64,000 nucleotides of DNA from Candidatus Krumholzibacteriota bacterium (GCA_016932415.1 JAFGCX010000007.1:244280-308279); one strand, 5' to 3'. Counted from the stretch's first letter, positions 1 to 55,997 are shown. The notes: generated by a model from the sequence alone, not told the origin. Numbers and translations: made by a program.

Positions 1-474
1 CAACCGCTCATAGCATCTAAGCCAGATCGCCTTCTTTTCCATCGGCTCGAGCGCCGTATTCAGGAGGCTGAGGACCCGCGCTTCTCCCTCGCGCTCCTCC
101 AGCTCCCTGTCCGGCCCGGCAAACCTTCCGGGAAGGTGCTCTACATCGAGTCCCTCCCCGTCGCCCAGGAGATCGACTCGCCGAACCTCGTTAAGACACC
201 GGTTCCTCGTGATCGAAAAGAGCCAGGAAGAAAACTTCGATTTTCCCGCGAAGGAATCGAGCCCTTCAATCGCGCGCAGAAAAACGTCCTGACTTAAATC
301 CAGCGCCTTCTCGTGGTCGCTGACGTACCTGAAGCACCACAGGTAGACAGCCTTCTGGTATCTTCCCAGCAGTTCGGCCGTTGCATCACCTCCCCGGCCT
401 TTGTCGCGGCCGGATCTGGCGAGACCGACCAGTTCAGAGTCAGTCAGTCCACCGTATTCTTCTTCATTAGACAT
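1..474 (-). CDS. ECF-family RNA polymerase sigma factor, 3' part beyond window
   Basis: The frame opens with ATG at 474 (MSNEEEYGGLTDSEL) and is still open at the left edge, giving 158 residues. Region 2 is plain at about residues 40-100: a helix with YLWCFRYVSDHEKALDLSQ, then DVFLRAIEGLDSF, then SSWLFSITRNRCLNEVRR, the usual ECF sigma order of core-binding helix, -10 recognition helix and basic end. Region 4 is only beginning (LEPMEKKAIWLRC) where the window ends. It directs RNA polymerase in the cytoplasm to an unknown promoter set. It starts 15 nt after the stop of the TPR-CHAT gene on the same strand, so the two are probably co-transcribed. No anti-sigma gene is visible; it may lie to the left. 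Family call is secure; regulon is unknown. Confidence 0.9.
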   Translation of the reverse strand, partial: MSNEEEYGGLTDSELVGLARSGRDKGRGGDATAELLGRYQKAVYLWCFRYVSDHEKALDLSQDVFLRAIEGLDSFAGKSKFSSWLFSITRNRCLNEVRRVDLLGDGEGLDVEHLPGRFAGPDRELEEREGEARVLSLLNTALEPMEKKAIWLRCYERL

Positions 475-489
475 CTCAGATTCAGTAAA

Positions 490-3378
490 TCACATTTTCC
501 CGTTAGATTTCATGATATTTTTTCGTTTTGCCGCCGCGATGGCGATCGCGAACCCCGCCACAAGAACCATTAAAAGAACGATATATTGTAAATACCTAAT
601 CACTCCCTTCTCTTCGAGATCGACAGTGATATTCCCGTTCCCGATGACTACAAAGCCTGCCCAGTAAAAAGGGGGCTCCGTCTTTTTTCTGCCGCGGACA
701 GTCATTTGCGAGCGCTGAAGAGCTGCGGCGACAGTCTTTCCCTTTGCCAGTTCCTTGTAGAACTCTCTCATCAGATCGGCGGTCGCGGCATCATCGACAG
801 GCCAGAGAGTCGCCACGACGGCAGAGGCGCCGGAGCTAATAAAAGCCGCCGGTAGGCCGAACATCCCTTCACCGACAGCGATCTTCCCCCTCGCCGATTC
901 GCATCCGGAGAGGACCACGAGACGGGCCGGTATACTTCCACCGGCAATATCCCCCGCTCTGAGATATGTGTCAGGTTCGAATTCAAGCGTCGAAGTTTCG
1001 TTGTCATTTTCCGGTCCCAGGAGAAACCCCGAGTGCCAGATCTTCTCATCATCTATCTTCACGTGAGTCGCGATATGTATCACTTCTGTAGAATTATCCA
1101 TATCGAAGAATTCTTTTTCCCCTCCATCGAAAATGTCGACACCGGCAATCCTGCCGCGCAGAAAGTCGACTTCCTCTTCGGCACCTTTCAATCTCGCTCC
1201 GCCTCCAGGAGCGACAGCAAGTATCCGGGCCGGGGTGTCAATTTTCTTGCCGGTGCCGGATCTCACCCTCAGCCACTTGAGCATCGTAGCTGAGGGGATC
1301 TGCTGGTTCTCCTTTGACTCGCAAAGCTGCCGCTCTTCGCTTTCGGGATCGCCTGGATCGGAAATAATGAGTGCGCCAAACGGAACAGAGCTGAAGTAAT
1401 TATCGGGCGCGATCAGGAGGCGCCTGGCTCCTCGTACAAGATCACCGACCTGGCCCAGTATCAGGTCGCCGAACTGCCGGTTCATACCGGCAAGATCGAT
1501 CTCAGCTTCCCCCCGATCGCCGCTTTGCGGCCTCTTACTCACAGCTTCGCGGTAAAGACCGACCCTCGCGGCGAAATCGGATTTCCTGCCGGGAAGAACA
1601 GCCATCCTAACAGCTTTGGCCGTTACGGCGAAGAGGTACGACTCACGATCACCGACTACAAAATCGAGGAAGAGCTCACCCGGGCCAAGGACTTCATGTC
1701 GCAGTTCAGAGAGGGAGATCGGAGATATTTTCGAAAGATCAGATTGAGGGCCATCCTGCCGCCGAGGCTCTGTCAACCTCTCAGTGAGGGTTCTCGCCTT
1801 GTATCGTTGAAATATGTTGAACATCTCTTCCACACGCTCTGCTTCAAGCCGATCTGGCGGATACTCAAGGACGATTCCCGCGCAGCTTACAGTGCTCCAG
1901 TTCCCTGTTTGCACTTCCCTCCACTCGTGTGAGCCGGTCATTTCACGCCTTTCGTCGATCAGGTCAAGGGCGCGATGGAACCATTCGTAAGCTTCGGCTG
2001 GCCTGCCCGCCGCGCGGAGAGACGCGCTCAGCTCAAAAGCCGCCTCAAGCTTCTGCTGAATATCGGCGGCTTGACCGATCTGTCTTTCCATCTTCTCCAG
2101 CCTGGCGAGCGCTTCTCCGGGTCGGCCTTCCCGGCGGATGTATCCGGCGAGCATGATATTCATTTTCGTTTCGTACTCTTCGACGTACGGCGACGCGAGC
2201 CCAACCTCGAGGACTTCGATTGCGGCGGCAGTACTGTCCATTCGATTCAAAGCATCAGCCAGCCCCGTGACCGCTTCGAACCTCTGCTTGTTATTCAGCA
2301 TGCTTCCCATTCCAAGGACCTGCCGGTAAAGCCGGGCCGCGGCGTTCATTCTTTTTTGAAGAACGCGTACCTCGCCGAGCCTGTTTCTCACTGTTCCGAG
2401 AAGGTCCAGATAATTCAATTCTTCGCAGGTCGTGATCGCCGATGAAAGGATATCTGCCGCATCTTCGTAATTTCCCAGGTAGGTCATCGCCAGGGCGGTG
2501 TTCGAGGCTGGTGTTATCATACCGCGCGCGTTCCCCATTGCTTCACTCAACTCAGTCGCCCTCTGGTAGTACTGGACGGCGAGGCTCATATCGCCGTAGA
2601 CGTACTCGAGGGTCCCGAGGTTGTTGACAGCATGCGACTCCTGGACGAGGTCACCGAGTTCCCTGGCGGCTACAAGGACTTTCTGGTAACAATCCCTCGC
2701 CGATTCTTCATTCTGCATCGTGTTATATACCCTGCCGAGACCTATCATCGGGGTGAGACCGGCCTGTTTCATCCCTTCAGCGGTGAAGATCTCCGTCGCG
2801 AGAGTATATTCTTCGCGCGCCTGATCGAGCTTCCCCTGCTGGAGATAGACGTATCCGAGAGCCGTTCGGGCCCACGCCTCACCCGGTCGGTTACCGGTCA
2901 GTCTCGAAAGGGAGAGTTTCTTCAGGCTGAGTTCCACGCACTCGTCGTAGCGCCCCTGCCAGGTCACGGCGAAAGCCTTGAACCCGAGAGCCTCCGCCCA
3001 GTTCAGCGTGTCTGCGCATGCCTCTGAGATACGGATCGCCAGATCAAGCGACGCCATTCCATCGACGTACTTTCTCGCCGAAAGCTCCGCCCTGCCGCGT
3101 ATGAGAATGAGCCTGCCGATCGCCATGGAATCATCCTCAGCTTGCGCCTGGTCGAGAACGAGCGGCACGAGCGATAGTACCGAATCGAAATTACCTGCCG
3201 AAAAAAGGGAATCTAGCACCGCGCGCTGATCACTGATCGACGCATTGCTTTGCTCGTCAAAATCATCCTGCCCCGATACAGATACGCCAGGCGCAAGGAT
3301 CAGGCAGACTGCTGAAACAGCAGCGGCGAACAAAACCGCAAAGAGTCTGCTGGCAGATGGATATCGTGATAAAGCCAT
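490..3378 (-). CDS. Exported TPR-CHAT caspase-like protease with C-terminal membrane anchor
   Basis: 962 residues. An N-terminal signal peptide or membrane segment (about 12-35, followed by VSGQDD) leads into roughly ten TPR units (about 50-480). A CHAT domain fills about 540-915. The catalytic pair of this clan CD cysteine peptidase family is present: His772 in HIATH and Cys826 in VVLSGCESARG, with the usual EGMFGLPAAF and FYWAGFVVIG around them. A hydrophobic helix at about 929-948 is followed by a short basic tail (KRKNIMKSNGKM), so the protease domain should face the periplasm with the tail inside. No Shine-Dalgarno precedes the ATG; a TATGAT lies about 9 nt upstream, so a leaderless message is possible. 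It sits 12 nt after the GH92 stop and 15 nt before the sigma factor start. Substrate unknown; a link to sigma control is inferred from order. Confidence 0.9.
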   Translation of the reverse strand: MALSRYPSASRLFAVLFAAAVSAVCLILAPGVSVSGQDDFDEQSNASISDQRAVLDSLFSAGNFDSVLSLVPLVLDQAQAEDDSMAIGRLILIRGRAELSARKYVDGMASLDLAIRISEACADTLNWAEALGFKAFAVTWQGRYDECVELSLKKLSLSRLTGNRPGEAWARTALGYVYLQQGKLDQAREEYTLATEIFTAEGMKQAGLTPMIGLGRVYNTMQNEESARDCYQKVLVAARELGDLVQESHAVNNLGTLEYVYGDMSLAVQYYQRATELSEAMGNARGMITPASNTALAMTYLGNYEDAADILSSAITTCEELNYLDLLGTVRNRLGEVRVLQKRMNAAARLYRQVLGMGSMLNNKQRFEAVTGLADALNRMDSTAAAIEVLEVGLASPYVEEYETKMNIMLAGYIRREGRPGEALARLEKMERQIGQAADIQQKLEAAFELSASLRAAGRPAEAYEWFHRALDLIDERREMTGSHEWREVQTGNWSTVSCAGIVLEYPPDRLEAERVEEMFNIFQRYKARTLTERLTEPRRQDGPQSDLSKISPISLSELRHEVLGPGELFLDFVVGDRESYLFAVTAKAVRMAVLPGRKSDFAARVGLYREAVSKRPQSGDRGEAEIDLAGMNRQFGDLILGQVGDLVRGARRLLIAPDNYFSSVPFGALIISDPGDPESEERQLCESKENQQIPSATMLKWLRVRSGTGKKIDTPARILAVAPGGGARLKGAEEEVDFLRGRIAGVDIFDGGEKEFFDMDNSTEVIHIATHVKIDDEKIWHSGFLLGPENDNETSTLEFEPDTYLRAGDIAGGSIPARLVVLSGCESARGKIAVGEGMFGLPAAFISSGASAVVATLWPVDDAATADLMREFYKELAKGKTVAAALQRSQMTVRGRKKTEPPFYWAGFVVIGNGNITVDLEEKGVIRYLQYIVLLMVLVAGFAIAIAAAKRKNIMKSNGKM

Positions 3379-20031: not shown

Positions 20032-22494
20032 ATGAGCATGACAGCGAAAGTATCATCCCTTCTCCTTCTTCTTTCTCTCGTCATCGCCGCGCCTTCTCTG
20101 CAGGCGTTCTGGTGCGAGGACGGAGTCCCTGTATGCGCTGCTGTGGGAATACAGGACTGCCTCGATACCGCTTACGGCTATGCAGGTCATATGCTGCTCG
20201 CGTGGCAGGATTATCGAAACCTGTCCGACGCTGATATCTATGTACAGCGGATCGATGAGATCGGATCAGCCCAATGGACCACGGACGGCCTTGCAATATG
20301 CACAACTTCCGGAGACCAGGAAAATCCGCAGATCATCAATGACGGAGGAGGAGGCGCGATCGTCGCCTGGCAGGATAATCGTTCCGGTGATTACAATATC
20401 TATGCCCAACGGATAAAATCCGGGGGAACGATCCAATGGTCAGCTGGCGGAATACGCATATGCAAGGCGATCGGAACCCAGGAGTATCCCCGGATCGTGA
20501 CAGATACTGCCGGTGGCGCGATCGTTGTATGGATAGATGAACGAAGCGGCGACGATGAGATCTACGCGCAGAGGATAAATTCAGAGGGAACCCCCCAGTG
20601 GACCACCGATGGCGTCCTGGTATGCGCGGCAAGCGATACCAAGTCATCGATGCAGGTTATTCCAGATGGCGCGGGTGGAGCGATCCTGACATGGCGCAAC
20701 TATGACGGGGCCCCTTCCATGGCCGACATCTGTGCCCAGCGGATTGACGACTCGGGATCGATTCTCTGGACTGCGGGCGGAGTATCCATCTGCAACGCGT
20801 CATTCCACCAGAACGATCCTCAGCTCGTCACGGACGGAGCGGAGGGAGCGATCATTACATGGGCGGACAATCGAAGCGAAGTCTCGAATATCTATGCCCA
20901 GCGGATCAATCCCGCGGGGACTGCGCAATGGACTACCAATGGGGTGCTTGTCTGCCCTGAGTATTTTCCCAAGTACTCCCCTCAGATCTGTTCTGATAGT
21001 ACGGGCGGAGCGGTTATAACATGGTCTGAGACACGCCACTACGATACCGGTTATGATGTCTACGCGCAGCGGATAAACAGCGCGGGCATCATCCTTTGGG
21101 ATTTCGACGCCATCAATGTTACTCCCGTGGAAGAAGGCCAGGGGTATCCTCAGATCGTAAATGACGGAACAGGCGGAGTGATAATAACCTGGGTAGACGA
21201 TCGTGAAGGCTCTTCCAGAATCTATTCGCAGAAGCTTGACGGTTCGGGGATATTCCAGTGGAGAACAGGCGGAGCCCCTTTGTGCCTTACAACGTCAGGC
21301 ATGGAATGCCTCCAGATCACTGAGGATGGGACCGGAGGCGCCGTCGCAGCCTGGGTGGACTACCGCCTGACGATGGATCGTAACATCTACGCCCAGTGGG
21401 TCGACACCGGAGGGATGCCAGGTTACAGGCCGACTATCATCGCCTCGATCAGCGACATCCCCGGCGACGAGGGCGGCTGGGTCCGGCTGACGATAGAGAA
21501 GCATTCATACGACGACGAGGGGTGGTTCAGATACCCGATCTATATGTACAACATCTGGCGGCGTGTTGATGACCCCGTCATGCTCTCTGCCATTGATAGG
21601 GCGGCGCCAGGCCATTCCCTGGAGGAAACGTCTCTTTCTGACTGGCCAGTCGTCGAACTCGACGGCCGGCGATTCCTCGTCTCGACCGAGCTTCTTCCAG
21701 TGCAGGATTTTCCTCCCGGCACATGGGAAGTCCTCGGCTGCTTCAACGCCTTCCGGCAGGATCAGTATCTCTATGTCGCCAGCACTCCGGCAGATTCGAC
21801 CGGAAGCAGCGTTCCGATGCCGGTCTTCTGCGTAAGCGCTCATACTCTCAATCCATCTCTCTGGTACGTCAGCGCGCCAGACAGTGGATATTCAGTCGAC
21901 AACCTCGCCCCGGCACCTCCGAGCGGCCTTGCCGGAGAGGCTGCCGAAGGCCCTCCCGGTGTCCTTCTTGAATGGGATCAGAATATCGAAAGCGACTTTT
22001 CATATTATATCGTCCACAGGGGCTCTTATGCCGGGTTCATCCCGTCGAGGTTCTCAAAGCTTGGAGAGACCGTTGCCCCGGAGTTCACCGACGAATATCC
22101 TCTCTGGTACGATTCGTATTACAAGATCTGCTCCGTCGACCGCCACGGGAACGCCAGTATATACGCGGTGCTCGGCCCCGGCGATCTGACAGGGGACGAT
22201 CCCGCCACCACTCCGGCGGTGACATACCTGTCGCGGAACTACCCCAACCCGTTCAACCCGTCGACGACGATCAAGTTCGGGTTGAGCGAGGCGGGGCCTG
22301 TTACGCTGAAAGTATATGATCCTTCGGGCAGACTGGTCAGGGTAGTCGCCGATGAGCCCCGTCCAGCCGGGCACTACGCCGAGCAGTGGGACGGCTTCAC
22401 CACGAGCGGCCAGAGAGCCGCCAGCGGAGTCTATTTCTACAAGCTGTCTGCCGGCGAGTTTACCGAGACAAAAAAGATGGTGCTTCTGAAGTAG
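20032..22494 (+). CDS. Exported eight-repeat propeller protein with FN3-like region and FlgD-type sorting tail
   Basis: 820 residues; AGGAAGG before the ATG and a signal peptide ending near QAFWCEDG. Residues about 30-465 hold eight repeats of about 53 residues. Each reads roughly as DGxGGAIxxWxD, IYAQRI and QWTxxG in order, giving eight (I/V)YxQ(R/K/W) motifs. The regular count suggests an eight-bladed beta-propeller. A central domain (ISDIPGDEGGWVRLTIEK, YNIWRRVDDP, PPGTWEVLGCF) and an FN3-like module (PAPPSGLAG, VLLEWDQN, YYIVHRGS, YKICSVDRHGN) follow. The sorting tail (NYPNPFNPSTTIKFGL, ASGVYFYKL, TKKMVLLK) ends it. The gene at 49511 has the same full architecture and the one at 32556 lacks the central part. 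The role is unknown; surface display is inferred from the tail. Confidence 0.87.
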   Translation: MSMTAKVSSLLLLLSLVIAAPSLQAFWCEDGVPVCAAVGIQDCLDTAYGYAGHMLLAWQDYRNLSDADIYVQRIDEIGSAQWTTDGLAICTTSGDQENPQIINDGGGGAIVAWQDNRSGDYNIYAQRIKSGGTIQWSAGGIRICKAIGTQEYPRIVTDTAGGAIVVWIDERSGDDEIYAQRINSEGTPQWTTDGVLVCAASDTKSSMQVIPDGAGGAILTWRNYDGAPSMADICAQRIDDSGSILWTAGGVSICNASFHQNDPQLVTDGAEGAIITWADNRSEVSNIYAQRINPAGTAQWTTNGVLVCPEYFPKYSPQICSDSTGGAVITWSETRHYDTGYDVYAQRINSAGIILWDFDAINVTPVEEGQGYPQIVNDGTGGVIITWVDDREGSSRIYSQKLDGSGIFQWRTGGAPLCLTTSGMECLQITEDGTGGAVAAWVDYRLTMDRNIYAQWVDTGGMPGYRPTIIASISDIPGDEGGWVRLTIEKHSYDDEGWFRYPIYMYNIWRRVDDPVMLSAIDRAAPGHSLEETSLSDWPVVELDGRRFLVSTELLPVQDFPPGTWEVLGCFNAFRQDQYLYVASTPADSTGSSVPMPVFCVSAHTLNPSLWYVSAPDSGYSVDNLAPAPPSGLAGEAAEGPPGVLLEWDQNIESDFSYYIVHRGSYAGFIPSRFSKLGETVAPEFTDEYPLWYDSYYKICSVDRHGNASIYAVLGPGDLTGDDPATTPAVTYLSRNYPNPFNPSTTIKFGLSEAGPVTLKVYDPSGRLVRVVADEPRPAGHYAEQWDGFTTSGQRAASGVYFYKLSAGEFTETKKMVLLK

Positions 22495-22539: not shown

Positions 22540-23430
22540 TCACTCGACGGCCAGGCTTGAAGAAAATATGACGCTGCCCTCGGGGTCAATGACGCGGACT
22601 CTATATTCTCCCGGCTCGAGAGTCCCGCCCTGAAGAAAAAGACACAGGGTATAGTTATAGCTGAAAGCTCCGCCGCTGATCGATTTGGCGTAAACAGGTT
22701 CGGAGCCGCCTCCACCGATGATACGGACCTCGTACTGATCGTCGTCCGAAAGCTCTATATCAGGTCCGGTCAGCTCCAGCAGGAGAAATCCGGCAACTTC
22801 GGCCTCTATCGTCGTGACTCCCGGACTGGAACCGGCGCCGCGGACGACACCTGCCTCATCGGACAGGACCGATACTCCTCCGAGGACGCCGATCGCGTCG
22901 CTGGAACGGTCAACCCTGGAAATGAGCAGTCCGATCGCCGCGACGGCGACGATAAGATAAACGGCCGCCGCGGCCGGTCTCAGGACCAGACTCGAAAAGA
23001 TCTCCCTCCACCTGCTCAATCGACTCGTCGCCTCTGCCGATCGGCTGGACGCGCTTCCGGACCTGGCCAACGAACCGTCATCTGCCCCGGCAGCAAGGTC
23101 GACGGCATGAAGCATTTCTATCTCGGCACGGCATTCGGAACACGCCTCGATATGCGTCTCGACTATCGCCCGCGCCGACGGCGTCATGATAGCGGGATCT
23201 TCGGCGAACTGAACAAGCGTTTCGGGATCGGGATGCCCGGAAAACGCCTCGACGAGGGTCTCGTGAAAACCGATGACAAACCCGAGAAGTTCCGCGCAGG
23301 AGGCGCACTCTGCCGCATGCCCCTCGACAAGACTCTTCTCTTCATCCGTAAGGGCCCGGGTCGGATACCAGACGGCAAGCTGCTCGCACTTTCGGCACTG
23401 CCCGGGTCTTTTATCATTTCCACTATTCAT
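22540..23430 (-). CDS. Membrane anti-sigma factor with two zinc-finger (zf-HC2) motifs and periplasmic domain
   Basis: 296 residues. Two HxxxCxxC motifs (His38-Cys42-Cys45 and His93-Cys97-Cys100) mark tandem zinc-binding anti-sigma domains; a further CxxC lies at 12-15. A Ser-rich linker leads to one membrane helix at about 152-171 (RPAAAAVYLIVAVAAIGLLI) and a 125-residue outer domain of beta character (ELTGPDIELSDDDQYEVRI, GEYRVRVIDPEGSVIFSSSLAVE). The cytoplasmic part should hold the ECF sigma factor encoded 10 nt upstream, and the outer part should sense or be cut. Tandem zinc fingers are less common than single ones. The divergent neighbour is an exported TPR-CHAT protease, which makes the outer domain a candidate substrate. 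Confidence 0.88.
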   Translation of the reverse strand: MNSGNDKRPGQCRKCEQLAVWYPTRALTDEEKSLVEGHAAECASCAELLGFVIGFHETLVEAFSGHPDPETLVQFAEDPAIMTPSARAIVETHIEACSECRAEIEMLHAVDLAAGADDGSLARSGSASSRSAEATSRLSRWREIFSSLVLRPAAAAVYLIVAVAAIGLLISRVDRSSDAIGVLGGVSVLSDEAGVVRGAGSSPGVTTIEAEVAGFLLLELTGPDIELSDDDQYEVRIIGGGGSEPVYAKSISGGAFSYNYTLCLFLQGGTLEPGEYRVRVIDPEGSVIFSSSLAVE

Positions 23431-23440
23431 AACGCCTCAG

Positions 23441-24136
23441 TTACAGATCGCCGTTCATCAACGGACCTCTCAACAACTCCCGCGCGTTCTCGACGCAACG
23501 GAACAACCTCACGCGTGCCGCTTCCTCCGATATTCCAAGCCAGTCTCCGATCTCTTTCCGGCTGAAGCCCTCGACGTACGCGCGGAGGATCATCTCCCTG
23601 CACACCTGGTTGAGCCGATCAAGCATCCGCTCGAGCATTACGCGGCTTTCGATCCTTTCACCGTCATCCTGTTTCGACACCGGGTCGGAAACGCTGTCGA
23701 AGGAGACATGGTCTCCGCGGGACTTGAGTCTGCGATAGCTTGTTATACACATGTTTTTCGCGACTCTCCGTACGTAAGCCCGGAGGTCTCCTCCTTTGAA
23801 GCAGCCGTCCCGCAGGTTCTGGACTACGGCGAGGAGCGTCGCCTGGACTATATCTTCGGCTGTCTCGAAACCCCAGACATGGTGCTCGGCGACGTATCTC
23901 GCCCACGATTCCACCCGCCGCACGTGTTCGGGATGTCCCTCGATGAAGCCCTGAACGATCATGTCGGTGACGTCGTCGGATAACACGGACTTATATTCCG
24001 GGCTCCCCGATCCCGAACTCTTCCGGGCACCTGCCGGAATCCCGCCGGTCTTTCCCGCTCGATCCTGAGGAAACAACAGCCGCTCTCCCTTTCTAAACCC
24101 GGGAGAATGGTACTTTGCAGTTTCACTTCGAGTCAA
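23441..24136 (-). CDS. ECF-family RNA polymerase sigma factor
   Basis: 231 residues from a TTG at 24136; the true start is uncertain because no clear ribosome site is present and the first 55 residues are unlike sigma factors. Region 2 runs from about 70 to 140 (WARYVAEHHVWGFETAEDIVQATLLAVVQNL, then LRAYVRRVAKNMCITSYRR). Region 4 is at about 165-220 (LNQVCREMILRAYVEGFSRKEIGDWLGISEEAARVRLFR), with a normal helix-turn-helix. It should be held inactive by the anti-sigma factor whose gene begins 10 nt after its stop. The pair is divergent from the TPR-CHAT gene, so the sigma factor may control that gene and itself, but no repeated ECF-type promoter could be identified by eye. Confidence 0.9.
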   Translation of the reverse strand: MTRSETAKYHSPGFRKGERLLFPQDRAGKTGGIPAGARKSSGSGSPEYKSVLSDDVTDMIVQGFIEGHPEHVRRVESWARYVAEHHVWGFETAEDIVQATLLAVVQNLRDGCFKGGDLRAYVRRVAKNMCITSYRRLKSRGDHVSFDSVSDPVSKQDDGERIESRVMLERMLDRLNQVCREMILRAYVEGFSRKEIGDWLGISEEAARVRLFRCVENARELLRGPLMNGDL

Positions 24137-24229
24137 GCAGTAACGCCCCGTCAGTATCTTCGCGCGTCAAGGGCTTCCGGTATTACAATCGTTCTACTGG
24201 ACTAAACGTTACATCATCCACAAAACCGG

Positions 24230-24258
24230 TTGATAGATGCTTTAAAGCGGTATATGCT
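24230..24258 (+). promoter_or_regulatory. Possible promoter giving a leaderless TPR-CHAT message
   Basis: TTGATA, a 17-nt spacer and TATGCT end only 8 nt before the GTG start of the TPR-CHAT gene, which lacks a Shine-Dalgarno. Transcription would begin almost at the start codon. The -10 is a weak match, so this is tentative. Confidence 0.25.
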
Positions 24259-24266
24259 CTTTTATC

Positions 24267-27200
24267 GTGAAAGCATCCGTTGATAAATACTTCATACTGT
24301 TCGTCATCGCGTCGCTGGGATTTCTTGTATCCACCACAACGAGCCTGCTCTCGATGACCGCCGCGGTGGAAGAGACATCAAACGCGAGGGCGCTTTTCGA
24401 TCTTGCCACCCGTCTTATCAGCGAAGACAGCCTCGAGGATGCCGACCGGATCCTCCTCCGCGCCGCCACACTTACCGAAAATGATACAATGAACAGCAGA
24501 AAGCTGTTGGCAGATATCCATACAGCCCGAGGCCGGATCGCCCTGCGCCTTGGCCGTCACGCCGAGGCCCGACCCCTGTTCGAAAAGGCTTTGCGTGTCG
24601 AAACGCCTGGCCGGGGCGCCGATCACGCGGAATATGTCCCTGCCATAAGCGGGCTTGCCGCGCTCGAATTGATCGAAGGTGATTTCAAGAGATCGGAAGA
24701 CCTCTTCCGGCGCGCCCTGGAGATAGCCCGCCCGGCGTACGGCGACGCCGACCCTGTCATGATCGACGCCGTGATCGGGTACGCGACGGTCCTCGGCTAC
24801 AAGGGAGAGTATATCGCGGCCGAGGAGATCCTTCGTCCACACTTCGAGACGGTCACGAACGAATACGGAGACACGGACGACCGGTCGATCCGCCTGATGC
24901 TATCACGCGCCGAGGTCCTCTCTACGCTTGGCAGAGACGTCGAATCGACGCTCCTCTATCGCCGGGCGGCCGCTGCTGCGGAAAAGGTCTACAAAGCCGA
25001 TCACGCGACTAGGGCCCTTGCTCTCTCCGGCCTCGCTCACACGTACAGGAGAGCGGGACAGGGGCAGGAGGCTCGCTCGCTTTACCGGCAGTGCATCGAG
25101 ATCGTGGTGAGAAAACATGGTTCCCCTCATCCGGATCTTGTCCATTACCGTAGCCGCCTGGGAATGTCGCTTTTCGAAGGCAATCGTTGGTCGGAGGAAG
25201 CTCTTGCCTCGATCGATCTCGCGATCTCTGAAGCAACACAGCTTTACGGCGAGGACAGCTACCAGGTCGCGATCGAGAAACGGCAGATGGTGCTCATTCG
25301 GATGGGACGGCTCGAATGGACGATGGCCGCCACCGTTTTCGAATCGTGCCTGCCGACTCTCACGCGTTACTTTGGCGCGGACCATCCGTTCCTGAGCAAG
25401 ATACTCAAGGGAATCGCCTGGACCTATTTCAATATGGGCCGGTCAAACGCCGCGATTGCCAGTATCGGCAAGGCCGTATCACTGCATGAAACGACGAAAG
25501 GCGGCGACAGATTCGAACTCGCATATCTTCTCAGTATAAAGGCATCGATTGAAATAGACGCTGGAAGATACGACAGCGCTTTTGCCTCGGCCAGGCGTTC
25601 AGTCGAAACGGCGATCGGAGTCCAGGAGGAAAACCTTCAGATATCATCGTCGAGCGAAGTTATCCACTACGCTGTCCGACCGTACACCTCGGCGCGGGGA
25701 CTCGTCACGGCCGCGGCGGCTCACCCCGCCCTTACCAGGGAAGATTGGGGAATAGCGTTCGCTCTGGTCGCCAGGACGCATGGCAGCGTACTCGACTGGC
25801 AAGCCGAGCGGCACCGGCTTCTCCGATCGTCCCAACGAGCCCGGCGGTCGAACGAGGCGGTCGAAAAAGCCTCTCAATATCTGGCAAATCTCGTTGTAAA
25901 CGGGCCCGGGGTCGATACGGCGGCGTATCACGATGAACTCGAGCGGGCAGGCCGGAATGTCGAAGAGGCAGACCGGGCGGCTTCGGCAGCAACGGAGGAA
26001 TTACGCGCGGGAAGCGATTTCACTCCGCTTCATCAACGGGTCTCGCTCTCGACGCTCTGCGGAGCGCTTGATCCCGGCGTAACTCTGATCCATTTCCTCA
26101 CCTATGGGAAAATCGTCGGAAGACCGTCGGAAAAACCATCATGGCGTCTTCCATTCTACGCGGCTTTCAGGCTCTCGAAGGGAGACGAAGGGATCCCCGA
26201 TCTCAGTTTTATCGACCTCGGATCGGTGAACTCCATCGATTCCCTCGTTGACGGATACCGGGACTCGATCGAGGCCATGGAGGCCGGAAGGCGTCCGTCG
26301 GCGCGCGACGAAGCTGAATACCGCAGGTACGCTCTCGCTCTGTATGAGCGGCTATGGGCGCCTCTGTTTTCTGATGAAGACGAAAGACCTGGTTCCGACC
26401 TGGCAGAGGCCGGGGCGCCGCTCATTCTCATAGTACCAGATTCCAGGCTACATGAGGTCGATTTCAATACCCTCCTCTCCCCCGGCGGGACGCTTGTGAT
26501 CGAAAAATGGAAGACGCACATCCTCTCTTCGGCTGTAGATCTTTTAAAAACGCCAGTTACATACGAACGGGGCAGTGACCTGCTCGCCGTGGGAAATCCC
26601 GCCAGGGACACAACAGATCCCCTGACGATGGCACCGCCCGATCAGGACGCGGACCAGACGGACCGGTTGTTCTGCATGGATGCGGCGTCAGTCGCCACGC
26701 CTCTACCAGGGGCCGAAAGGGAGGCTGCCGCCGTGGCAAAACTCTTCTCCCGGGAGACTGGAGAATCGACAGTCCTGCTCTCTGGAGCCGAGGCTACCGA
26801 AAGCCGGGTTAAAAGGGAGATCGCGGGAAAACGGATAGTCCACTTTGCCACCCACGGATTTGTCTGCGACGAAGACGCGATGCGCGAACGAATGGCCGGT
26901 GAGACGCCGATCGATCCTCTCCTGATGTCAGGCCTCGTCCTGGCCCCCGGACACGAATCGGACGACGGCCTTCTTACTGCGCAGGAAGTGACCTGCCTCG
27001 ATCTCAGGACGGTCGACTGGGTCGTCCTCTGCTCGTGCGGATCCGGCCTCGGCCGGGTAGTCAGCGGGGAAGGAATGTTCGGACTCCGCCGCGCGTTCGA
27101 GATCGCTGGCGCCCGGACGGTCATCATGGCGCTATGGAGGCTCGACGATAACGGCACGCGCCTGCTCACCGAGGAGATCTACGCCCGGAGAATCGCAGGC

Positions 27201-27323
27201 GCCTCGACCGTCGATGCCATCCGCGAGACCGAGCTGGCCCGCGTCGAAGAAAGCCGCCGCCGCTTCAACCGCATCCACCCTTCTCTCTGGGGCGGTATCA
27301 TCTCTGAAGGCGACTGGCGCTGA
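24267..27323 (+). CDS. Exported TPR-CHAT caspase-like protease
   Basis: 1018 residues from GTG 24267. The N terminus (KYFILFVIASLGFLVSTTTSLLS) is a signal peptide or anchor. Kinesin-light-chain-type TPRs fill about 40-470 (GRHAEARPLFEKALRVE, GDFKRSEDLFRRALEIARP, GRYDSAFASARRSVETA). A helical linker follows, then the CHAT domain at about 620-1015 with its dyad His863 (HFATHG) and Cys924 (LCSCGSG), and GEGMFGLRRAF. The final conserved block is WGGIISEGDW instead of the usual WAGFVLIG. There is no second membrane helix, unlike the protein at 490-3378. It is divergent from an ECF sigma/anti-sigma pair across 130 bp. A role in cutting the anti-sigma outer domain is inferred from topology and order only. 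Confidence 0.9.
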   Translation: MKASVDKYFILFVIASLGFLVSTTTSLLSMTAAVEETSNARALFDLATRLISEDSLEDADRILLRAATLTENDTMNSRKLLADIHTARGRIALRLGRHAEARPLFEKALRVETPGRGADHAEYVPAISGLAALELIEGDFKRSEDLFRRALEIARPAYGDADPVMIDAVIGYATVLGYKGEYIAAEEILRPHFETVTNEYGDTDDRSIRLMLSRAEVLSTLGRDVESTLLYRRAAAAAEKVYKADHATRALALSGLAHTYRRAGQGQEARSLYRQCIEIVVRKHGSPHPDLVHYRSRLGMSLFEGNRWSEEALASIDLAISEATQLYGEDSYQVAIEKRQMVLIRMGRLEWTMAATVFESCLPTLTRYFGADHPFLSKILKGIAWTYFNMGRSNAAIASIGKAVSLHETTKGGDRFELAYLLSIKASIEIDAGRYDSAFASARRSVETAIGVQEENLQISSSSEVIHYAVRPYTSARGLVTAAAAHPALTREDWGIAFALVARTHGSVLDWQAERHRLLRSSQRARRSNEAVEKASQYLANLVVNGPGVDTAAYHDELERAGRNVEEADRAASAATEELRAGSDFTPLHQRVSLSTLCGALDPGVTLIHFLTYGKIVGRPSEKPSWRLPFYAAFRLSKGDEGIPDLSFIDLGSVNSIDSLVDGYRDSIEAMEAGRRPSARDEAEYRRYALALYERLWAPLFSDEDERPGSDLAEAGAPLILIVPDSRLHEVDFNTLLSPGGTLVIEKWKTHILSSAVDLLKTPVTYERGSDLLAVGNPARDTTDPLTMAPPDQDADQTDRLFCMDAASVATPLPGAEREAAAVAKLFSRETGESTVLLSGAEATESRVKREIAGKRIVHFATHGFVCDEDAMRERMAGETPIDPLLMSGLVLAPGHESDDGLLTAQEVTCLDLRTVDWVVLCSCGSGLGRVVSGEGMFGLRRAFEIAGARTVIMALWRLDDNGTRLLTEEIYARRIAGASTVDAIRETELARVEESRRRFNRIHPSLWGGIISEGDWR

Positions 27324-49510: not shown

Positions 49511-51988
49511 TTATCGCAACAGAACTAACTTTTTTGTTGCGGTGAATTCACCGGCCTCAATGCGATAGAAATACATCCCGCTTGCCACCTGCCGGCCGGC
49601 ATCGTCCCGGCCGTCCCATACCTCAGCGTACCGCGCCGCCGCTCGCCCTTCGTCCACGAGCTCCCGCACAAGCCGCCCCGCCGCATCATATATCTTCAGC
49701 GAAACATTCGCGGGAGCCGAGAGCCCGTATTCGATCCGCGTCACGGGATTGAACGGGTTAGGGAAGTTCTGAGCGAGATAATTAGTCGCGGGCACGCCCG
49801 GTATTTCACTCCCGGTCACATCATCGGGTCTCAGGATCGCAAACCCGCTCTCGTTTCCATGAACGTCGAGGGCCGAGATCTTGTAATAATAGTTACTGCT
49901 CCAGTGCCAATCGCTATCGAAGTATTCGGCGTTGACAGGCGTGGCGATTTTGTTCCCCGGCTCCGGAACAAAATCCTCGCTTGAGCCGCGATAGACCGCG
50001 TAATGCGAAAGATCGTTCTCCACATTCACATTCCACGTAAGCTTTAGACCCTCCGGCGCGGCGCTTTGATCAGCCATAAGCCCCTCCGGAGGTTCCGGCG
50101 GCAGATTGTCAACGGAGTAACCGCTATCGGGGATGCTCGTGTACCATACAGAGGGCATCACCGTGTGCGCGCTCACCATATAGACCGAGTACGCAATTCC
50201 ACTCTCCGTGGAATCGGCGAGCGTGCTCGCCCGATAGATATACTGATCCTGCTGGCAGGCGGCGAAACTTCCGAGAAGTTCCCAGGTGCCTGCGGGAAGT
50301 TCTCCAGTTTCCAGGAAATCCCTCGAGTCGATAAACGATCGACCGTGAACCTCCCTGATTGGCCAGCATGAAACATCAGGCGCATCCACCGATTGTCCGG
50401 GCGGTGAATTGTCAACCGCCGCACCAGCCGCTTTCTCATCACTCACGAGATCGCAAACAGCAAGCAGCTCCGGATCATCGATACGCTGCCAGATGTTATA
50501 TATGGAGACGGGATATTCAAACTCCAGTTCGTCATCGCCTGGAGATTTATCGATCGTGATCCTCACCCATCCGCCCTGATCGCCAGGCACATCCAGCACG
50601 GATATTATGCTTGGAGCGGGGCTGCCGATTCGGCCTTCTCCATCAACCAGCTGCGCATAAATATCATAACCCCCGCTTCGCATATCCTGCCACGTCACAA
50701 TCGCTCCGCCAGGACCACAAGAGACCAGCATTGGGGAATCCTGGTCTGCCGGTGCCGCGCAGATGGCGACGCCATCTGTCGCCCACTGAACAGTGCCCGA
50801 CGAGTCTACGCGCTGGGCGTATATGTCAATATTAAATTCCCCGTTACGAAAATCCTGCCAAACAATGATCGCTCCACCGGCGCCATCGGAGATAATAACC
50901 GGATATCTTTGTTCTTCGGCTGCAGCGCAGATGGCGATGCCATTGGCCGTCCATTGAACTGCTCCCGAAGCATCCAGGCGCTGGGCATAGATATCATAGT
51001 CCCCGTTTCGCAGATCCTGCCACGCGACAATCGCGCCGCCGACTCCATCGGAGCTGATTGCCGGATAGACCTGGCTATGCGTTTCCGTGACGAGCGCGAC
51101 GCCATCGGCCGTCCATTGAACAGTACCAGATGCATTGATCCGCTGAGCATAGATGTCCCAGCCCCAGTCGCGATAGTCATACCACGTCACGATCGCGCCT
51201 GCCGCGCCGTCCGATACGATCCTTGGACCAAACTGCTCTTCCGCTGCCGCGCAGAGGGCGACTCCATCAATTGTCCACATGGTACTCCCAAAACAATTTA
51301 CCCGCTGGGCATAAATATCATAGTCACCGCTCCGGTAATCCTCCCATGTGACAATCGACCAACCGGATTCATCAGATACGATTTCGGGATAATCCTGAGT
51401 GTTCGCCGCCGTGCAGAGGGCTTCCCCATCGGCTGTCCACTGAACGGTTCCCGAAGCATCCACCCGCTGGGCAAAGATGTCCAAATTCCCGCTGCGCCGG
51501 TCATGCCACGTGACGACAGCCCCTCCGGCTCCATCGGAGGCAATTTTTGGATACCTCTGATCCAGCGACGCCTGGCAAATAGCAACGCCATCTGCCAACC
51601 ATTGAACGGTTCCGGAAGCATCCACCCGCTGGGCATAAATGTCATAGCCACCGCTACGGTAGTCGAACCACGCGACAATGGCTCCGCCAGTGCCGTCGGA
51701 GACTATTGTCGGAGCGATCTGAGTGTTTGCGGCAGCACTGAGAACGACGCCGTTCGGCGCCCATTGAATGTTGCCCATGTCGTCCAAGCGCTGGGCAACG
51801 ATATTTCCATCATACCACGCGATAATCGCTCCATCCGCGCCGTCGGAAATAATCACCGGTTTCATCTGATCCTCCGCAGCGGTGCAGATCGGCAGCCCGT
51901 CTTCCACCCATGAGGCCCGGATCGACGGCACAGCGATGACAATAGAACAGAAAGTCATGACAAGCATGATCCGCATTCCCCCGCTCAT
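49511..51988 (-). CDS. Exported eight-repeat propeller protein with FN3-like region and FlgD-type sorting tail
   Basis: 825 residues from ATG 51988, seven nt after AAGGAGG; an ATG six nt earlier is too close to the ribosome site. The signal peptide is MRIMLVMTFCSIVIAVPSIRA. It is the closest relative of the 20032 protein, with the same domain order: eight repeats (motifs IVAQRL, IYAQRV, IFAQRV, IYAQRV, IYAQRI, IYAQRL, IYAQRV, IYAQLV), a VPGDQGGWVRITI domain with YNIWQRIDDP, an FN3-like module (LKLTWNVN, YAVYRGS, YYYKISALDVHGN) and the sorting tail (NFPNPFNPVTRIEYGL, WDGRDDAGRQ, ASGMYFYRI, TKKLVLLR). The repeats are much more alike than in the other two paralogs, which suggests recent expansion or gene conversion. 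Probably displayed or released at the surface. Confidence 0.88.
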   Translation of the reverse strand: MSGGMRIMLVMTFCSIVIAVPSIRASWVEDGLPICTAAEDQMKPVIISDGADGAIIAWYDGNIVAQRLDDMGNIQWAPNGVVLSAAANTQIAPTIVSDGTGGAIVAWFDYRSGGYDIYAQRVDASGTVQWLADGVAICQASLDQRYPKIASDGAGGAVVTWHDRRSGNLDIFAQRVDASGTVQWTADGEALCTAANTQDYPEIVSDESGWSIVTWEDYRSGDYDIYAQRVNCFGSTMWTIDGVALCAAAEEQFGPRIVSDGAAGAIVTWYDYRDWGWDIYAQRINASGTVQWTADGVALVTETHSQVYPAISSDGVGGAIVAWQDLRNGDYDIYAQRLDASGAVQWTANGIAICAAAEEQRYPVIISDGAGGAIIVWQDFRNGEFNIDIYAQRVDSSGTVQWATDGVAICAAPADQDSPMLVSCGPGGAIVTWQDMRSGGYDIYAQLVDGEGRIGSPAPSIISVLDVPGDQGGWVRITIDKSPGDDELEFEYPVSIYNIWQRIDDPELLAVCDLVSDEKAAGAAVDNSPPGQSVDAPDVSCWPIREVHGRSFIDSRDFLETGELPAGTWELLGSFAACQQDQYIYRASTLADSTESGIAYSVYMVSAHTVMPSVWYTSIPDSGYSVDNLPPEPPEGLMADQSAAPEGLKLTWNVNVENDLSHYAVYRGSSEDFVPEPGNKIATPVNAEYFDSDWHWSSNYYYKISALDVHGNESGFAILRPDDVTGSEIPGVPATNYLAQNFPNPFNPVTRIEYGLSAPANVSLKIYDAAGRLVRELVDEGRAAARYAEVWDGRDDAGRQVASGMYFYRIEAGEFTATKKLVLLR
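50620..51910 (-). repeat. Tandem DNA repeats of about 159 bp encoding the propeller units
   Basis: Eight consecutive units recur at the DNA level within the gene, each with runs such as CGCTGGGCATAAATATCATA and GGCCGTCCATTGAAC or near copies. They encode the 51-55 residue repeat. Similarity between units is high enough to permit slippage or recombination. Confidence 0.7.
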
Positions 51989-52125
51989 AGCCATTCCTCC
52001 TTGTATGGGCATTCCTTCGCTACTATCGATTTTATATGAATGAAGAGGAATCGGGTCGAGGGAGGGCAACGGAGATACGCGGCGCCCTCTTCCCCTGAAT
52101 GTCTTGTGATTACCAGTATGGCATG

Positions 52126-52155
52126 ATTCTAACACAGTGTGGAAGGAGAAGGCAA
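52126..52155 (-). promoter_or_regulatory. Possible promoter for the 49511 propeller gene, extended -10
   Basis: On the minus strand TTGCCT, an 18-nt spacer and TAGAAT with a TGT extension. The leader would be about 130 nt. Confidence 0.4.
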
Positions 52156-52244
52156 CGAAAAAAGCGGACACGGGATCGCCCGGAACAACTGGACCGTTCC
52201 GGCAGTCCCGGAACGATTCAATCAACGCAACAACAATTACCTGA

Positions 52245-55200
52245 TTAATTCGACTCGCCGATTAAAACAAATGCCGACCAGAAATAAGGATGATCAAATG
52301 GCCTGTTTTGAACCTGATCGTTATAATTCCTTAGCCATTCCTTGGCTTCCTGAAGCGCCTCGGCTTTGGACATTGATTTTTTTCCGTGCCCATGATGTTT
52401 TTTGAGATTACCCTCCCAGAGGTTGCCGTAGAAACGCCTCATAAGAAGCGCGGTTGCCCGATCATCCACTTTCCACAAACTGACTATGAGACTCCTTGCG
52501 CCCGCACGAAAGAAAGCATGGGACAAACCTATATACCCCTCTCCCCCAACCCTTTTACCAAGACCCGTTTCACAGGCACTCAATGTCACCAGGTCGGCTT
52601 TCAATTTCCAATCCTGGATGATTTCCTTTGCAGTGACCAGACCATCATAAATTCGCGATCCTGTCAACGCGGCTTCAAGCGGATCCGGCAAATTGACCTG
52701 GGAAAGTACCAGTGCCGATCTTTCAAGGTATTCATCATCAACCAGCGCATGAGTCGCTATGTGGATTGTGGAGAACTCCTTGAGCGAATCCAGGTCCGCC
52801 AATTGCGCCAACTCCTGTTCTGTCGCGTCCGGTCCAATAAGAACCGTTGCTTCTGGAGCTATTGTCGCGATATCGATCACCTCCTGCCTGGAACCAGGAA
52901 GACGTGGTAAAGCGGCAAGAGCTTCCCCGTTACCGGCAACCGCGCCTCGCAAGACAGCAATTTCCGGTGCCGGTTCCTTGATACTATTGAAGTTCCCAGC
53001 CAATCCTGTTTCCATCTGCATCGCTGCTGCATGCGCTTCTGAGAAAGGAGGGTCGCCGACAAGCAGTACATGCCGCGATTCCCTTTTCCTGCTTTTTCCC
53101 GATCTTTCAGCCAGCCACGAGTAAATTGTCGCCGAAGGTATATATGATATCACATAGCGATCGCCCAATAACGTTCCCTTTTCGTCCTCAAGAGCCTCAA
53201 CAGGCACGCCTAACATCAACCCGGATGGAATCACTATGAGACAATCAATATCCTTCAGCCACTCACCAAGCGGTGCTATACGTTGAGCCCATATTTCACG
53301 TGTTTTGATCCGGAAATCAGTTGAAGACTCAGGCGAAGACAGTGATCTTCTGAACTCCTTAAAATATTCATAAGGAGATTCGCTTCCATCATTTTTGGAC
53401 GCGCATTCTATGCCAGCCCATTTCACCGGCCCTTTGTGTCGTATGACATAACCCCAACACGCGTATTTGCCATCCTCAACAGCTACATCGAGCCAACCTA
53501 TAAGCGCGGTTCCATTCGAAATGGTCTTTTGAATCCTTTCAAGTGAAAACGAACGCCCCTCGGTAACCGGATAGAGTTTCGCCATTTCCTGTTGAAGAAC
53601 GCTATATTCCAATTCTGTCGCGAGAAGTTTATCATGCGTTTCATCGACCCGTTTCTGCATCTCCCCTGTCGTATCGGCTGACGCCATCTTTCGAAATGTT
53701 TTCAACTCGCCTTCAATTGCGGCAAGAGCATTTTGAAGCGAATCTTCCTGGACGATCTCGGCATTCTTTAATTCACGTTGATCTGAAGATAACAACAATT
53801 CGGAGAGTATGCGTCCCTGATGCATTTCTACTTTTGGCCAAGCTTTGTTTTCTTTGCCTGACATAAGTTGAATTGCGGCAAGACCTGGATAAGGAGATCT
53901 TTGAAAAGTCGCCCTGTTAAAGCCAGTTCCAGCTCTCAACCTGGCCACCTCGAATATTTCTGCTGATTTGGAAAAATATTTCTCCGCGTTTTGATAATCT
54001 TCTTCTTCCCACCTCAGCAGGGCAATATCGTTAAAATCTGAAACGAGGTCGGGATGTGTCCTGCCCATAAGTTTTTCACGAATTGATGTGACCCGCATGA
54101 CCAGCGATTCAGCTTCCCGTTTATTACCCTGCTTATAAAGAAGCTTCGAGTAGCTTTTCAGAATTTGCGCGTAGTCGGGGTGATCTTCTCGCGCAATCTT
54201 CTTCCAGTGCGAAATCGCTTCGCCGTACAGTGAATCGGCAGCCATATAATCCTTTTGCAACATCAATATTCCAGCCAGGTTGCTTAAGCTTATCGCGATA
54301 TTTGGATGTCCATTTTCGTAAGTGCTGCGATAAATCGACAGAGCTTCACGAAAGAGTTGTTCCGCGGTCGTATAATATCCCTGTGATTTGTGCAATTGGG
54401 CCATATTGCCCAGACAATTAGCTACTTCGGGATGAGTATCCCCCACCGTTTCCCGATATATCGCCAGAGCTTCCAGGTACATTGACACGGCAGCGGAATA
54501 GTCTCCCTTATTTTCCAGCAGAGCCGCGAGATTATTCAGGTCGGTCGCGACATCCTTGTGATTCTTGCCCAATAATTTCTGATCAATGGCCAGGCACTTT
54601 CTAAAAAGCGGTTCCGCGTCCAAATAATCTCCTTTACTATTTAACAAGCCGGCGAAATTACTGAGCGTCACGGCGTACGCGTAGTTTTCTTCACCTGATA
54701 TATTTTTTTGCATCGCGAGAGCTTCACGAAAAATCGGAACCGCGTCTTCATAGTCGCCCTGAAGCCTTGTAATAGTCGCGAGCGTGCTGAGAGTCCACGC
54801 TATATCTTCGTGCTCATCACCATAATTTTTCCTTAGAATCTCCAGCGCTTCTTGCGTCAATAACCTGGCTTCAGCGTAATTACCCTGAACCATGACCACA
54901 TGCCCAATATTGTTGAGACTGTAAGCAATAGCTATATGGTCTTTCCCCATTAATTTTTTACGAATAGCGAGAGCCTCGCGTAAAAATGATTCTGTGGTCG
55001 TGTAATCTCCCTTGTGCCAGAACAGGCCTCCCAGATCATTCAGTAGCGCGGCCACAAAGGGATGTTCATCCCCAAGAAACTTTCGCTTCATCGCCAAAGC
55101 TTCACGGTAAAGTGGTTCAGCACCGGCGTAATCTCCCTGGTAATTAAGAATTCCGGCTATGGCATGCAGATTTGATGCGATTTCCAGATGATCATCGCCA

Positions 55201-55997
55201 TGGATCTTTCTCTGCATTTCCAGGGACGTTCTGTATTTCGACAAAGCTCCCTCATAATCTTTCTTTTTCTTCAACAACCCACCGATTTCATAAATCGTTC
55301 TGGCAATATCCATATGCTCCTCGCCGTATATTCTTTTCTGCATCTCCAGAGCTTCCGTGTACAGCGAATCCGCCCCGGCGTAATCATTACTCGCCTGTAA
55401 TGAACCTGCCACGCTGACAATGGTTTTTGCCACTTCCGGATGTTCGTTTCCGAGAATTCTACGGCGAATCTTTAATACTTCACGCTTAAGTCCTGCCGAC
55501 CGTTCATAATCCCCGACATATGTTATCAACCCCGACAGGTCATCTAGACTTTGAGCCACTTCTACATGTTCCTCGCCTAGAATCCTTCGTTGAATCTCCA
55601 GCTGTTTTTCAACAACAGCGGTGGCTTCATCATACTTATTAGCTGAATATAGACTGTCCATGGTTTCTGCCATCAGACTTGCTTCAGCCAGCTCCTGCTT
55701 TTCTTTTGTCGAAAGACCCATGATGAATTCAAGCGTGTTCACAAGTATTTCGATATCCTTGATCTCAAAAGCGCGCGACTGGCTATCTTCTTGTCTCATG
55801 TACAGAATCTCTTTTGCGAGTTTTAACGCCTCGCCATAATTTGCCTCTTTTCGAAACCCTACGATTCTTTCTTCGAGAACAGATATGGAGTCACCTGATA
55901 CGCGCGGTGGATTATCAGCCGTAAAGCAGTCCGCGGAATCTGACCCGGTCATTACTGTCAAATTGATCAGAAAAAAAATGAGCATAAATCGACGCAT
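52245..55997 (-). CDS. Exported TPR-CHAT caspase-like protease with 13 regular 42-residue TPRs
   Basis: 1250 residues; GGGAGGT precedes the start and a short signal peptide (MRRFMLIFFLINLTVMTGSDSA) leads. From about residue 115 to 680 there are 13 TPRs of exactly 42 residues of the kinesin-light-chain type plus a partial one (GDYAGAEPLYREALAMKRKFLG, GDYTTTESFLREALAIRKKLMG, GDYSAAVSMYLEALAIYRETVG and so on), with H/N-P-x-V-A between. A coiled-coil-like linker follows. The CHAT domain occupies about 850-1250, with His1083 (HIATHA) and Cys1142 (LSACETG), GEGYIGLSHAF and the closing PYFWSAFVLIG. Catalysis should be intact. No sigma gene adjoins; a zinc-finger regulator is divergent 332 bp away. 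The regular TPR stack is a likely recognition module; target unknown. Confidence 0.92.
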   Translation of the reverse strand: MRRFMLIFFLINLTVMTGSDSADCFTADNPPRVSGDSISVLEERIVGFRKEANYGEALKLAKEILYMRQEDSQSRAFEIKDIEILVNTLEFIMGLSTKEKQELAEASLMAETMDSLYSANKYDEATAVVEKQLEIQRRILGEEHVEVAQSLDDLSGLITYVGDYERSAGLKREVLKIRRRILGNEHPEVAKTIVSVAGSLQASNDYAGADSLYTEALEMQKRIYGEEHMDIARTIYEIGGLLKKKKDYEGALSKYRTSLEMQRKIHGDDHLEIASNLHAIAGILNYQGDYAGAEPLYREALAMKRKFLGDEHPFVAALLNDLGGLFWHKGDYTTTESFLREALAIRKKLMGKDHIAIAYSLNNIGHVVMVQGNYAEARLLTQEALEILRKNYGDEHEDIAWTLSTLATITRLQGDYEDAVPIFREALAMQKNISGEENYAYAVTLSNFAGLLNSKGDYLDAEPLFRKCLAIDQKLLGKNHKDVATDLNNLAALLENKGDYSAAVSMYLEALAIYRETVGDTHPEVANCLGNMAQLHKSQGYYTTAEQLFREALSIYRSTYENGHPNIAISLSNLAGILMLQKDYMAADSLYGEAISHWKKIAREDHPDYAQILKSYSKLLYKQGNKREAESLVMRVTSIREKLMGRTHPDLVSDFNDIALLRWEEEDYQNAEKYFSKSAEIFEVARLRAGTGFNRATFQRSPYPGLAAIQLMSGKENKAWPKVEMHQGRILSELLLSSDQRELKNAEIVQEDSLQNALAAIEGELKTFRKMASADTTGEMQKRVDETHDKLLATELEYSVLQQEMAKLYPVTEGRSFSLERIQKTISNGTALIGWLDVAVEDGKYACWGYVIRHKGPVKWAGIECASKNDGSESPYEYFKEFRRSLSSPESSTDFRIKTREIWAQRIAPLGEWLKDIDCLIVIPSGLMLGVPVEALEDEKGTLLGDRYVISYIPSATIYSWLAERSGKSRKRESRHVLLVGDPPFSEAHAAAMQMETGLAGNFNSIKEPAPEIAVLRGAVAGNGEALAALPRLPGSRQEVIDIATIAPEATVLIGPDATEQELAQLADLDSLKEFSTIHIATHALVDDEYLERSALVLSQVNLPDPLEAALTGSRIYDGLVTAKEIIQDWKLKADLVTLSACETGLGKRVGGEGYIGLSHAFFRAGARSLIVSLWKVDDRATALLMRRFYGNLWEGNLKKHHGHGKKSMSKAEALQEAKEWLRNYNDQVQNRPFDHPYFWSAFVLIGESN

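Follow-up and report, generated by a model that had tools for sequence, protein, structure and literature searches.

One of the closest described systems is DdvA, whose partner we take to be the ECF sigma factor DdvS of Myxococcus xanthus and which is presumably linked to the control of a CRISPR-Cas system. Solved as a single-chain transmembrane anti-sigma factor with CHAT (PDB 8rot, 8rw5), it holds anti-sigma part, helix and CHAT in one chain, whereas the locus described here distributes them over two separate genes. The experimental model for the logic of such a switch is the Csx29/Csx30/CASP-sigma system of type III-E CRISPR (Strecker 2022, PMC10028731). Csx29, like the protein described here, is a TPR-CHAT protein with catalytic His and Cys, encoded alongside an ECF sigma factor and a sigma inhibitor; the differences are that the present CHAT protein has a predicted export signal and that a membrane anti-sigma factor of the zinc-finger kind takes the part of the inhibitor. 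By analogy, the proposed order of events, i.e. an outer-domain cut, then a site-2 cut and then sigma release, would be that of regulated intramembrane proteolysis of the RseA-DegS-RseP type, with DegS as the site-1 protease there and a caspase-fold CHAT protein here. ECF54 sigma factors likewise have CHAT proteins encoded near them, and control by proteolysis has been suggested for this group (PMC8999054); unlike the present set, ECF54 is described there as having no anti-sigma factor. Operons with metacaspase genes, in Myxococcus among others, have also been noted to contain sigma-70 genes (PMC3501461).

In the present work, we examine a gene set located in a 64,000-nucleotide stretch of DNA, called the window below. 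The relevant features are the following.

22540..23430, minus strand: anti-sigma factor of 296 aa, with a pair of zinc-finger motifs, a single membrane helix and an outer beta-sandwich (zf-HC2 in Pfam, in two stretches; AF2 model)
23293..23397, minus strand: first zf-HC2 motif, residues 12-46 of the anti-sigma factor (Pfam)
23131..23154, minus strand: second HxxxCxxC motif, anti-sigma residues 93-100
22915..22977, minus strand: membrane helix of the anti-sigma factor, residues 152-172 (hydropathy and AF2 helix)
22822..22917, minus strand: extracytoplasmic linker of the anti-sigma factor, residues 172-203, predicted to be disordered (pLDDT <50)
22837..22842, minus strand: R197-G198, predicted cut site VVR↓GAG in the anti-sigma factor (Arg invariant across classes; putative cleavage)
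22546..22818, minus strand: outer beta-sandwich domain of the anti-sigma factor, residues 205-295 (AF2 strands)
23441..24136, minus strand: ECF sigma factor (TIGR02937, 6e-18; Sigma70_r2, r4_2)
24267..27323, plus strand: TPR-CHAT protease of 1018 aa, predicted to be exported (CHAT 5e-56, TPR_12 2e-37; AF2)
24270..24374, plus strand: signal-like N-terminal helix, TPR-CHAT residues 2-36 (hydropathy; AF2 helix)
24384..26012, plus strand: TPR superhelix, residues about 40-582 of TPR-CHAT (Pfam, AF2)
26853..26855, plus strand: codon of the catalytic His863 of TPR-CHAT
27036..27038, plus strand: codon of the catalytic Cys924 of TPR-CHAT
490..3378, minus strand: second TPR-CHAT gene of the same kind, followed on the same strand by its sigma gene (window 1-474, continuing outside it) and its anti-sigma gene (L010:9395-10168)

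The coordinates agree with the first-pass annotation in that the sigma and anti-sigma genes lie 10 nt apart, with the TPR-CHAT gene divergent from them. The spacing of 130 bp given there for the divergent pair holds with the TTG start taken here for the sigma factor; with the nearest in-frame ATG, which is codon 59 at position 23962, it would be 304 bp. Similarly, the reported export signal is borne out by a signal-like N-terminus of the CHAT protein, but it requires translation from the GTG at 24267 and would be gone with an ATG start at codon 30. The CHAT-clade relatives of this protein also have a signal sequence, the exception being L089. Automatic calling of N-terminal signals produced some false negatives, and these were inspected by eye.

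The build of the anti-sigma factor is as previously described: it has two HxxxCxxC motifs, located at residues 38 and 93, and a single membrane helix followed by an outer part of about 125 residues. With its zf-HC2 domain and the ECF sigma gene in the same transcription unit, it is a predicted Class I zinc-finger anti-sigma factor, which would bind and inhibit its sigma factor. The CHAT protein scores 190.6 bits against PF12770, for which the curated cut-off is 24, and both H863 and C924 are intact, just as annotated before, which assigns it to the CHAT peptidase family. We have also considered whether this could be a type III-E CRISPR locus. Among the five genes around the site, Pfam finds neither a Cas7-11 effector nor a Csx30 homologue, and the anti-sigma factor is of the zf-HC2 kind; this identity was rejected, as the other III-E parts are missing from these genes.

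We now turn to the protease itself. The AF2 model of the window CHAT protein has a pLDDT of 83.8, and its best Foldseek matches are DdvA (E 6e-16), human separase, which belongs to proteases that cleave after Arg, and Csx29, to which it aligns over TPR and CHAT with a Z of about 26. The resemblance to separase and to Csx29, a cutter of a sigma inhibitor, counts in favour of a cleavage mechanism. His and Cys are both kept in 124/128 sigma-linked CHAT proteins and in 128/134 unlinked ones, while one fused chain (L293) has apparently lost its catalytic residues.

The gene set is conserved well beyond the window. In six genomes, a sigma-70 family gene lies within about 1.8 kb of the CHAT gene in 12/29 cases against 1.1 expected, the sigma profile having been broadened so that divergent sigma factors were counted; the P of 3e-10 assumes independent gene placement, and paralogues make the true value larger. 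In 30 genomes of Acidobacteriota, 38/63 fetched CHAT genes are sigma-linked. With the window anti-sigma factor as query in 80 genomes of the phylum, all seven relatives found adjoin a sigma gene and six adjoin a CHAT gene, the seventh being located at a contig end. Among the named loci carrying the set are some from Krumholzibacteriota, Zixibacteria, Ignavibacteria and Acidobacteriota. The genes are arranged in one of three ways, as CHAT-sigma-anti-sigma, as sigma-anti-sigma-CHAT or divergently as in the window. An arrangement by pure chance was rejected, the linkage being far above expectation. The surveys (12/29, 38/63, 7/7) show the conserved linkage that the proposal made from the window alone required, with the unit standing outside CRISPR, and it is very likely that sigma factor, anti-sigma factor and TPR-CHAT protein form one functional unit.

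It is important to consider here that the CHAT protein might be the output of this unit and not its trigger, i.e. that the sigma factor drives TPR-CHAT expression and the protease hits other envelope proteins or brings about cell death. ECF sigma factors often regulate adjacent genes, the divergent or co-transcribed layout fits self-regulation of neighbours, and 17/29 CHAT genes in the six genomes have no sigma neighbour. On the other hand, at many loci CHAT and sigma are tightly co-transcribed in that order, with -9 to about 50 nt between them, and matched compartments, anti-sigma-CHAT fusions and the Arg motif discussed below bind CHAT to the anti-sigma factor. We regard the output role as quite unlikely.

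The compartments of CHAT protein and anti-sigma factor go together. Among the loci with a recognisable zf-HC2 anti-sigma factor, which are the ones tabulated, 32 combine a membrane helix with an exported CHAT protein, 15 have neither (a membrane-less class gathered mostly with the anti-sigma and not the CHAT query), and there is one of each mixed kind. The covariation is pronounced on the raw counts (Fisher 1.6e-10 for 32/1/1/15), but the independent evidence is few in count, because the CHAT tree has only two to three independent compartment switches, always in the same direction. Both mixed cases can be accounted for: in L089 the anti-sigma factor has 12 residues outside, with CHAT and sigma kept, and in L263 the anti-sigma helix falls just below the cut-off. 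The near-absence of an outer part in the L089 anti-sigma factor nevertheless counts against the cleavage scheme. Overall, the CHAT protein and the outer part of the anti-sigma factor are highly likely to share a compartment, as had been suggested for the window, where the CHAT protein is predicted to be exported and not cytoplasmic.

Other versions of the set depart from this plan. The signal-less CHAT proteins with a membrane-less zinc-finger anti-sigma factor are from Acidobacteriota (L230, L235, L240, L267-L271, L273-L276, L281, L283 and L296), and one genome, G235, has several such sets. Four further loci (L282, L284, L285 and L298) have a sigma factor, a signal-less CHAT protein and a small partner of 160-169 aa without a zinc-finger motif. 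Seven loci (L242, L250, L259, L287, L290, L291 and L293), each beside a sigma gene, encode fused chains in which an anti-sigma-like or zinc-finger region is joined to a membrane helix, TPRs and CHAT; DdvA matches the profile of these proteins (E 1e-22) and keeps the His and Cys motifs, as ATHG and AACEGG. In L047, L049, L065, L126 and L265, next to ECF sigma and CHAT genes, a kinase-like domain replaces the cytoplasmic anti-sigma part with the same one-helix plan. Pfam scores the kinase domain in L049, L126 and L265 and finds DUF4384 as the outer domain in L049 and L265. The outer parts also vary, and include the beta-sandwich of the window, DUF4384, TPRs and Fn3-like domains. The window ectodomain clusters with those of 8 other CHAT-linked anti-sigma factors, and a structure search with its beta-sandwich returned generic immunoglobulin-like matches only.

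This variability counts against a cleavage scheme: as the ectodomain differs among loci, CHAT would need to recognise the linker or make partner-specific contacts. One could instead imagine that CHAT is a co-sensor that cuts occasionally or not at all, binding the outer domain and shifting the grip on sigma, with the Arg as a docking contact. Besides the wide variety of ectodomains, this would account for DdvA and the fused proteins, where CHAT is the sensor part of the anti-sigma factor itself, and for the ability of a kinase to take the place of the anti-sigma factor. It is at odds with the retention of His and Cys in 124/128 linked CHAT proteins, as for a working protease, and with the position of the Arg in a predicted disordered linker, off the folded domain, and we consider it unlikely.

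We return to cleavage by CHAT and to the candidate site. When 12 divergent anti-sigma factors (17-26% identity to that of the window) are aligned, just three positions are invariant: M1, H93 in the zinc finger, and R197. The AF2 model has the helix at 152-172, disorder from 172 to 203 and the beta-sandwich at 205-295, and R197 is therefore predicted to sit in a loose linker between helix and sandwich. An Arg directly before the folded outer domain is found in 7/7 DUF4384, 9/9 Fn3-like and 10/10 window-class members, in 15/16 of the Acidobacteriota beta class, in 13/13 of the TPR class after shifting one row by one residue, and also in 15/15 of the membrane-less class. Some of the assignment to classes was done by eye, which makes these counts and the scores below indicative. 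The five membrane ectodomain classes together have the Arg in 54/55 rows. The residue that follows is Gly in 28, Ser in 17 and Ala in 4 of the 55 rows (49/55 for the three), and Val or Leu precedes the Arg in 30/55.

With a leave-one-class-out matrix, the Arg is the best site in 8/9, 8/10, 13/16, 7/13 and 2/7 rows. The motif scores exceed those of shuffles in all five classes (p 0.04 to 1e-6) and those of CHAT-unlinked anti-sigma factors in four of the five, the TPR class not being above these controls (p 0.37). For the 17 unclassified linked anti-sigma factors, the scores are higher than those of shuffles (p 0.009) but exceed those of unlinked controls only marginally (p 0.06). The mere presence of Arg-Gly/Ser/Ala in 75-residue segments (90% versus 78% in shuffled ones) is a weak test, as this dipeptide occurs frequently. 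In the fused chains, two Arg past the helix are invariant, followed by residues other than Gly or Ser, with further Arg-Gly pairs downstream seen by eye only, and the kinase variants do not clearly share the motif. All three sigma-linked sets of the source genome have it, as VVRGAG, PVRGDG and VLRGIS.

We infer the Arg preference of CHAT from the substrate side only, because the sites cut by Craspases (between A and S, L and D, and M and K) are non-conserved (PMC11106740). In this respect the present family, with its conserved Arg site, differs from Csx30. That R197 is the cleavage site has somewhat less than an even chance.

Another option is that Arg-Gly/Ser is a structural or processing feature cut by a different protease, with CHAT nearby for some other reason. 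Envelope proteases with Arg specificity are common, and the motif always abuts a folded domain; yet it occurs before unrelated folds and also in cytosolic anti-sigma factors, with only the CHAT partner in common, which makes this option very improbable.

The mechanism that we favour starts from a resting state in which the zinc-finger part of the anti-sigma factor would keep the ECF sigma factor at the membrane's inner side. The TPR arm, outside the inner membrane, may sense a signal and activate the CHAT protease, which would then cut the anti-sigma factor after R197, in the linker that joins helix and outer domain. With that domain gone, the stump would be open to the general site-2 protease of the cell, and this step would free the sigma factor, so that the presumed direction is activation. 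A single M50 gene for a site-2 protease is present in the genome; the presence of such genes is universal and hence expected anyway. The scheme builds on the established gene set and its conservation, the compartments matched by sequence, the intact catalytic residues and the conserved Arg. Proteolytic release of sigma is in our view probable, and the whole scheme, in which activated CHAT cuts after the Arg to bring it about, is marginally less so. Of the envelope scheme originally proposed for the window, the unit, the shared compartment and the dyad stand, but it was too narrow, as cytosolic, fused and Ser/Thr kinase versions exist. It is quite possible, though somewhat less likely than not, that such sets are widespread and make up a family of caspase-like switches independent of CRISPR, in which a TPR-CHAT protease cuts the anti-sigma factor paired with it after one conserved Arg. 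Such a family would have evolved three topologies, with the pair either exported or cytosolic, or with both parts in a single chain.

If this is true, the CRISPR protease Csx29 with the sigma inhibitor that it cuts would represent a special case of a larger caspase-fold bacterial signalling system, and a relative of separase and the caspases would act as a gene switch and not as a killer. Sigma release would then have a site-1 protease of a new type, many anti-sigma factors would offer a cut site that can be tested, and there would be a way to the signals read by the TPRs. A literature search without most subscription journals gave no description of the exported set with its separate proteins, of its cytosolic counterpart or of the Arg site, which is weak evidence.

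The source genome has six CHAT genes, three of which, the window set included, adjoin sigma and anti-sigma genes. The remaining three (window 52245-55997, L007 and L008) have no sigma neighbour. The one at window 52245-55997 has many TPR repeats and adjoins a gene for a secreted FlgD_ig/T9SS-tail protein, and a DUF2087 regulator gene (window 56330-57082) is divergent from it. Two of the CHAT genes have as neighbours the genes for two large, look-alike secreted proteins whose C-terminal tails are T9SS-like (window 20032-22494 and 49511-52225), and such tails are also seen beside further CHAT sets (L010, L070). At another locus, a gene for a C10 family (streptopain-like) peptidase (L058:7051-8646) lies directly 3' of a CHAT-sigma-anti-sigma set.
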